Positions 62,501 through 64,000 of a DNA stretch of 64,000 nt are shown in pieces. The notes beneath the pieces are model-generated. The model worked only from the letters and a program-made list of their open reading frames with translations. It was not told the origin of the DNA and ran no database searches. How positions within the stretch are numbered: the first letter of the stretch is position 1; each line of letters opens with the position of its first letter. This stretch comes from Crambe crambe (taxonomy: Eukaryota > Porifera > Demospongiae > Poecilosclerida > Crambeidae): assembly GCA_963924555.1 (NCBI GenBank), contig OZ004594.1, positions 62,001 to 126,000 of the forward strand, written 5' to 3'. The position numbers and the translations under genes were made by a program.

Positions 62501-62794
62501 AGTCACTTGATCCTATGAGGGGCAGGGGATTCATTATTCATCTAGTCCATGCAGGCACATGGAATCACATGAAAGCACATGCAGGTACATGCAGGCACGT
62601 GGAGGTTCCATATACATACCAGAGTGGGAGTAGCCAGCACGAACTCCTTGAGGACCAGGACGAGTGGCGTTGGCACAGTCTCCCCCATCCCAATCACATG
62701 CTGAGTTGTTGCAGTTGGCATCACAGTAATGGTCACGGATCCAACTAGGGGGACAACCCTCGGCACAGTTAGGCACTGGCCAGGACAGATATAC
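59515..62794 (-). CDS. GNPTAB: GlcNAc-1-phosphotransferase alpha/beta subunit, 3' half only in window
   Basis: The first exon seen (62794 downward) starts [25 protein letters not shown], a Notch-like LNR module, followed by a second LNR (DYCGPGC...CGYDAGDCG). Then come an N-glycosylation-rich spacer, [33 protein letters not shown], an EF-hand-like [18 protein letters not shown], the Stealth C-terminal block [22 protein letters not shown]...[23 protein letters not shown], and a final TM helix ([20 protein letters not shown]). A basic tail ([16 protein letters not shown]), if the last acceptor is as I read it, ends in TAG at 59515-59517. The enzyme adds GlcNAc-1-P to lysosomal hydrolases in the Golgi. 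In-frame TAG just before VYL shows that an upstream exon is needed. The N-terminal TM and Stealth CR1/CR2 are absent from the 62795-63004 gap. Confidence 0.88.
60400..60475 (-). other. EF-hand-like segment inside GNPTAB
   Basis: The loop [19 protein letters not shown] (spanning the exon junction near 60460-60530) has the DxDxDxxxxL..RE spacing of an EF-hand, as in vertebrate GNPTAB. Position 12 is Glu as expected. Position 9 is Ser, as allowed. Confidence 0.5.
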
Positions 62795-63004
62795 CTACAT
62801 GCACATGATATATAACATGCATGGAGCCGACATCCAGCATGCAAATTAATATTCATTTATAAACGCACACTAAAATGATTCATGCTTAGACCATATGACC
62901 TTTGCGTGACCTCTGAATACCATTGTGCAAGATCTTCAAGAATAAGAGAATGAAGAACTCAATCCTACACCTCCTTGCTTTACTCACTCTTGTGACTGCC
63001 ACAG
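62795..63004. other. junction between 5'-incomplete GNPTAB and 5'-incomplete IDS-like gene
   Basis: 210 bp with no recognisable exon of either gene. It ends on the right in a pyrimidine-rich tract and acag, which looks like the splice acceptor of the IDS-like exon, and on the left in the complement of a GNPTAB acceptor (ctacatgc). Two acceptors back to back, with no first exon for either gene, make it a possible breakpoint or a place where two genes interleave. Confidence 0.6.
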
Positions 63005-64000
63005 TGAAGTCCATAGTCCCAACATTGATGCACTGGCTTCTAAGTCCATGGTGTTTGAGAGAGCTTACTGCCAAGTTGCAGTCTGTTCTCCATCTCGTAC
63101 CTCACTCCTCACAGGAAGAAGACCAGACACTAACCATGTGTGGAGAATATCTGGCGATGAGTACTGGAGGAACTACACCAACGCTACCACCATTCCACAA
63201 TACTTTAAAGACAATGGATACATATTAGCTGGAATGGGCAAGATATTTCACCCTGGAAAACCCAATGGTTTCGATGATGAAGAATACTCCTGGAGTGTGC
63301 CATACTTCCATGGAACTCAAAACACTAGTGATATTGGACATGTCTTGGCATTCCTTTGAAGATGCACAAGATGACAAACTTAGAGATGGCCAAATCTCTG
63401 CCAAAGCCATTCAAACTCTACAAGATATCAAGAAGAACCGTAGTCTGGGTGATGATCGTCCATTTTTCCTTGCTGTGGGATTCCACAAGCCTCACTTGCC
63501 CTTTTTTGCACCATCCACTTACTATGACATGTACCCTCCTCCAGATCAAATCAAGCCACCTGCCAATCCTGATGCACCGGCTGGAATACCACCCATTGCA
63601 TGGAGCACCTCCGCAGAATTGCGCAATCATTGGGACATGAAGAAGTATGCCTCACCTGAGTGCTACTCCAATGCCACTGCTTCCATAAATGGAAGTGAGT
63701 GCATGATAACAGGGCTCGAGGCACAAACCCTCAGACGAGCCTATTATGCATGTGTCAGTTTCACTGATGCACAAGTCGGTAAGGTGATTGCAGAGCTGGA
63801 AGCACAGGGTTTTGCCAATGACACTATCATAGTCATGTGGGCTGACCATGGATGGCAACTTGGAGAACACAATCTGTGGGGAAAGTTCACCAACTTGGAG
63901 GACGGGACACACGTCCCTTTCTTGCTGAGGGTACCAGGTGTGACGGATGCTGGAATGCGCTCCAAAGCACTGGTGGAGCTGATTGACATATTCCCAACCC
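63005..64000 (+). CDS. IDS: iduronate-2-sulfatase-like gene, 5' incomplete, one frameshift, runs off window
   Basis: The exon begins EVHSPNIDALASKSMVFERAYCQV, then AVCSPSRTSLLTGRRPDTN, the sulfatase signature with the Cys that is converted to formylglycine. It continues TIPQYFKDNGYILAGMGKIFHPG and YSWSVPYFHGTQNTS. The frame then shifts by one base between 63331 and 63357; the upstream frame stops at 63357-63359. From about 63337 the second frame runs open to the window end: FFLAVGFHKPHLPFF, TLRRAYYACVSFTDAQVGKVIAELE, MWADHGWQLGEHNLWGKFTNLEDGTHVPFLLRVPG. Missing upstream is the exon with the metal-binding VDDLRP motif. IDS removes 2-sulfate from iduronate in lysosomal heparan/dermatan sulfate breakdown. 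It could be a pseudogene, a sequencing error, or a gene with a distant first exon. Confidence 0.75.

Follow-up and report, generated by a model that had tools for sequence, protein, structure and literature searches.

A tandem pair of IDS-like sulfatase genes, one intact and one decayed, lies nested in intron 7 of a complete GNPTAB gene in the sponge Crambe crambe

Lysosomal hydrolases receive their mannose-6-phosphate tag from the GNPTAB enzyme, and in Crambe crambe the gene for this enzyme carries sulfatase genes inside one of its introns. Nested genes are reported to number 2432 in A. vastus (12.4%, with a typical range given as 5-10%) (PMC10282587) and 2357 in the ctenophore H. californensis (PMC8527503), and the first of these sources indicates that such counts depend strongly on the annotation method, with 0 in Ephydatia and 83 in Oopsacas (PMC10282587). 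Among the matches listed in the open-access literature (titles and abstract openings), we saw no report of a sulfatase nested in GNPTAB, and GlcNAc-1-phosphotransferase combined with a nested gene gave no match in that literature.

We analyzed a window of 64,000 nucleotides (contig C17, positions 62001-126000; window positions carry the prefix w, w62794 being C17:124794) and searched the genome from which it comes (119 contigs, 143.14 Mb; the published assembly, odCraCram1.1, is described as 143.20 Mb in 124 scaffolds, PMC12166358). A first-pass annotation of the window had read a GNPTAB gene and an IDS-like gene as meeting head to head, each opening at a splice acceptor and lacking its 5' end. 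We find instead that a single complete GNPTAB spans the site, which falls in its intron 7, and that this intron holds a tandem pair of IDS-like genes on the opposite strand. The two seemingly broken genes are an intact GNPTAB that runs past the end of the window and a sulfatase pseudogene, whose intact twin lies next to it. We are very confident of this explanation. The features are as follows, each with its basis.

w59515..62794, minus strand: GNPTAB coding exons 8-21, including the C-terminal hydrophobic segment and the stop codon (exon model; spliced protein against human GNPTAB)
w62620..62794, minus strand: GNPTAB exon 8, with its phase-0 acceptor TAG at w62797-62795 (exon model)
w62795..64000, minus strand: in-window part of GNPTAB intron 7 (exon model)
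w62950..64000 and on to C17:126453 (453 bp past the window), plus strand: IDS-like sulfatase pseudogene (alignment to the intact copy)
w62950..63000, plus strand: start codon and signal-peptide stretch of the pseudogene, MKNSILHLLALLTLVTA, ending at the GCC before the missing 70 nt (alignment; signal peptide judged by eye)
w63002..63004, plus strand: cag misread as an acceptor, which aligns with normal coding sequence of the intact twin (alignment)
w63344..63345, plus strand: place of a 2-nt frameshifting loss in the pseudogene (alignment to the intact copy)
C17:128379-128552, 128639-128788 and 129833-129904, minus strand: Stealth CR1/CR2 matches (the only ones returned by the genome searches)

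The GNPTAB model, picked by hand from the minus-strand reading, has 21 coding exons (C17:121515-130364, minus strand) that all join in phase and encode 1245 aa with no internal stop. Its introns are GT-AG in 19 of 20 cases and GC-AG in one (exon 18 donor). This GC-AG intron 18 spans w60023-60081 (donor GAG/GCAAGG), and its GC donor was selected since the joined protein then fits the human stretch there. The spliced protein matches human GNPTAB (PDB 7s05) at 8.5e-228 over two stretches (residues 45-761 and 877-1197 of 1245), and the part encoded by exons 8-21 begins with what we take to be LNR/Notch-like repeats. The first-pass annotation was right that the in-window reading opens at a splice acceptor, exon 8 running from w62794 behind a real one (atgtgcatgtag/GTATATCTG), and right that the Stealth CR1 and CR2 exons are absent from the window, as the genome searches returned matches only at C17:128379-129904. 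It had also proposed to seek the N-terminal part of GNPTAB in the rest of the genome, and the CR1 and CR2 profiles locate that part on the same strand just past the window end. Exons 1-7, which carry both domains, occupy C17:128379-130364 (minus strand), 2.4-4.4 kb beyond the edge, and the Pfam profile search found one CR1 match and two CR2 matches genome-wide, all on C17, minus strand. CR1 (PF17101) scores 42.2 bits there, and CR2 (PF11380) scores 78.1 bits on one exon and 70.1 on another, all above cut-off. The last residues of exon 7, which closes at C17:128379, are HGQK and the first of exon 8 are VYLSW, a phase-0 join whose human counterpart reads KGQKVYLTW (the human sequence that resembles the join is KGQKVYLTWPVPNC). 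GNPTAB is thus not truncated at its 5' end; exons 1-7 are merely beyond the window. Two readings without 5' ends do face each other in the window, which had raised the thought of a misassembly or inversion joining unrelated gene fragments at w62794-63005. No such error need be invoked, as GNPTAB keeps an open frame through the site and its splice phases run on across the whole stretch; with a second sulfatase copy 194 bp downstream in the same orientation, and with the published C. crambe assembly reported at 459-fold HiFi coverage and QV 58.1 (PMC12166358), we consider a misassembly almost inconceivable.

Intron 7 (C17:124795-128378) measures 3584 bp, against 50-158 bp (median 67) for the other 19 introns, and both sulfatase copies, from ATG to stop, lie wholly inside it on the plus strand. 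Within it, 155 bp precede the first copy (1504 bp from ATG to stop), a spacer of 194 bp separates this from the second (1599 bp), and 132 bp follow; the two copies and the spacer fill 3297 of the 3584 bp. The sulfatases therefore do not meet GNPTAB head to head, as had been supposed, but sit nested within it, in an ordinary nested-gene layout. The suggestion that the genes are interleaved, each with its first exon beyond the other, holds for GNPTAB, whose exons 1-7 lie past the sulfatases, and fails for the IDS-like gene, a single-frame pseudogene that needs no exon elsewhere. The stop of the intact sulfatase is 132 bp from the GNPTAB donor of intron 7, and in the 454 bases after it the only poly(A)-like signals are a weak TATAAA (C17:128284) and an AATAAA (C17:128611). 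Because the AATAAA is located past GNPTAB exon 7 and the weak TATAAA alone precedes that exon, the predicted 3' end of the sulfatase transcript may overlap the host exon in antisense.

The intact copy (C17:126648-128246, plus strand) begins 648 bp beyond the end of the window, 194 bp downstream of the pseudogene and in the same orientation, and its single open frame encodes 532 aa. The protein carries VDDLR at 33, CSPSR at 73 and eight N-glycosylation sequons, matches PF00884 with 147.1 bits, and has human iduronate-2-sulfatase (PDB 5fql) as its best solved-structure match (1.5e-90). Ten aligned positions are kept (D34, D35, C73, R77, K125, H128, H210, D327, H328 and K340), which we take to correspond to the catalytic and metal residues of human IDS.

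Aligned to this twin, the upstream copy is 89% identical over 1480 columns and shows net losses of 82, 2 and 8 nt that break the frame and one of 3 nt that keeps it. Of the 82 nt lost, 70 form one stretch between two GCC triplets, and with it the VDDLR segment (D34, D35) is gone; because the missing 70 nt are flanked by these triplets, the sequence suggests a microhomology deletion. The same loss puts the signal-peptide stretch out of frame, so that the gene seemed to start at EVHSPNID. The cag at w63002-63004 that had been read as the splice acceptor of the IDS-like gene aligns with contiguous coding sequence of the intact twin (GCCACAGCGAAGTC), and the 5' end, thought to be missing, is in place but broken. 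Likewise, the earlier observation that the window holds no VDDLR part stands (in-window sulfatase matches begin at profile position 25), whereas the 210-bp gap between the two readings is not empty, as it contains the pseudogene ATG (w62950) and signal-peptide stretch. We also considered whether a VDDLR exon might be hidden upstream of w63005 and rejected this, as the signal-peptide stretch directly adjoins the lost segment, with no room for an intron between them. A real rearrangement that truncated both genes and left two broken ones would fit an in-window IDS-like copy that is truly broken, but GNPTAB is complete, and the ATG, signal-peptide stretch and C-terminus of the IDS-like copy are all in place, with small losses as its lesions and no breakpoint; we judge this reading exceedingly improbable.

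Over 497 codons, the two copies differ by a dS of 0.30 and a dN of 0.062 with no nonsense codon, and their dN/dS of 0.21 is a pairwise value that does not give the timing of lost constraint on the pseudogene's own branch. These figures suggest constraint until recently and might be taken to mean that the upstream copy is still a working gene whose introns or shifted frame were misread by the alignment. We find this very unlikely, since the D34/D35 segment is physically absent (the 70 nt between the two GCC triplets) and the frame from the copy's own ATG ends after 92 codons, with two more frameshifts following. The upstream copy has instead probably decayed recently, given the low dN/dS and the absence of nonsense codons despite the frameshifts. 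It is a pseudogene in the assembled haplotype, and an allele in the alternate haplotype, which PMC12166358 lists as GCA_963924525.1, could be intact.

From this arrangement we propose that GNPTAB would be transcribed through the sulfatase pair and the 3.6-kb intron 7 spliced out, while a promoter of its own in the 194-bp spacer would drive the intact sulfatase on the opposite strand. The sulfatase protein would enter the secretory pathway, be activated by formylglycine formation at Cys73, and reach the lysosome or the outside of the cell. As to origin, one sulfatase gene may have entered a formerly short intron, been duplicated in tandem and later lost one copy to decay. Opposite-strand transcription of the sulfatase could also tie the amount of cargo to that of the tagging enzyme, and the nesting could have been kept since host and guest are coupled in this way, an idea to which we give very little credence. 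That the gene of the hydrolase-tagging enzyme should house a lysosomal-type sulfatase is a coincidence noticed after the fact and weak evidence for coupling, because the genome is rich in sulfatases (59 stretches match the sulfatase profile, some being exons or pieces of one gene).

The nested gene has four close relatives in the genome (78, 69, 68 and 67%) and one distant relative (41% or 38% in two comparisons), each of the five matching as one open frame (527-573 codons). A separate cluster of at least six sulfatase genes, also single open frames (516-528 codons), lies on both strands at C12:1942657-1975282. Around the closest paralogue (78%, C10:3426621), Pfam matches were found in five of eight neighboring ORFs (three ferroportin, one talin and one DUF747) and in none of seven further ORFs; we saw no nesting in ferroportin there, the sulfatase lying outside the ferroportin match, past its C-terminal end, and nesting in a host on the DUF747 side is possible.

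On the sequence comparisons, this IDS-like family may descend from an animal IDS whose introns were lost, or may go back to an early transfer from bacteria. The transfer would have brought the family to sponges from Acidobacteria- or Verrucomicrobia-like bacteria, and concerns its origin only. In its favor, the five paralogues are single open frames, and a search of prokaryote genomes with an alignment of six sponge paralogues matched 341 stretches, 312 of which encode relatives; the best bacterial relative among the best 80 of these 312 is 44.7% identical to the nested protein over 532 positions, against 37.0% over 521 for human IDS. Sulfatase is moreover reported among the commonest Pfam domains of putative prokaryote-derived genes in Amphimedon (PMC4784904). 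On the other hand, the same search with a single protein matched a pattern in 18 stretches and confirmed none as a relative, and human IDS as the query scores the nested copy highest, at 317 bits against 309 for the best bacterial sequence. A quick tree of 88 sequences, including all 78 loci to which the best 80 of the 312 correspond, groups the six sponge sequences with human IDS (support 87), with that fork drawn open, a long-branch warning, and human IDS as the only animal sequence from elsewhere. We therefore regard bacterial transfer as possible but lean away from it.

A 149-bp segment (w62813-62961, C17:124813-124961, plus strand), comprising the upstream region of the pseudogene and its first 12 coding bases, is 99.3% identical to C8:2141565-2141713, and the search returned these two places only. 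No sulfatase turned up in the 20 kb surrounding the C8 copy, which adjoins an ORF resembling, by eye, a neighboring ORF. On sequence grounds, C8 appears to have received the segment from C17 in a recent templated insertion. Just past the 3' end of GNPTAB lies a hairpin element of about 160-170 bp (w59082-59251), with arms that are 100% complementary over the outer 26 nt and 86-88% further in. Its family has 608 candidate places in the genome, 40 of which (this one included) scored at 98-100% identity, and it looks like a young, abundant MITE-like family. A plus-strand multi-exon gene (w58000-58900), presumably encoding a RhoGAP domain judging by eye, converges on the same end of GNPTAB.

GNPTAB, central to lysosomal targeting, is thus complete in C. 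crambe, and the alarm over misassembly or gene loss falls. Automatic annotation may split the gene at intron 7 or overlook the nested sulfatases, and the pairing of GNPTAB with a sulfatase offers a small natural test of functional linkage between nested genes. Human GNPTAB (the GlcNAc-1-phosphotransferase alpha/beta precursor of PDB 7s05) and its sponge counterpart correspond along most of the length, with Stealth CR1/CR2 and the exon 7/8 junction among the matching parts; compared with its own other 19 introns, the sponge gene has one that nested genes have enlarged to 3.6 kb. The intact sulfatase and human IDS (PDB 5fql) have the ten aligned catalytic positions in common, whereas the sponge copy is a single open frame, only 37% identical to the human protein and with bacterial relatives at least as close. 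As in other animal nested intronic genes, a single host intron encloses the entire guest, here in antisense orientation; unlike in typical cases, two tandem copies, one of them dead, make up the guest, and it plausibly acts in the same pathway as its host.
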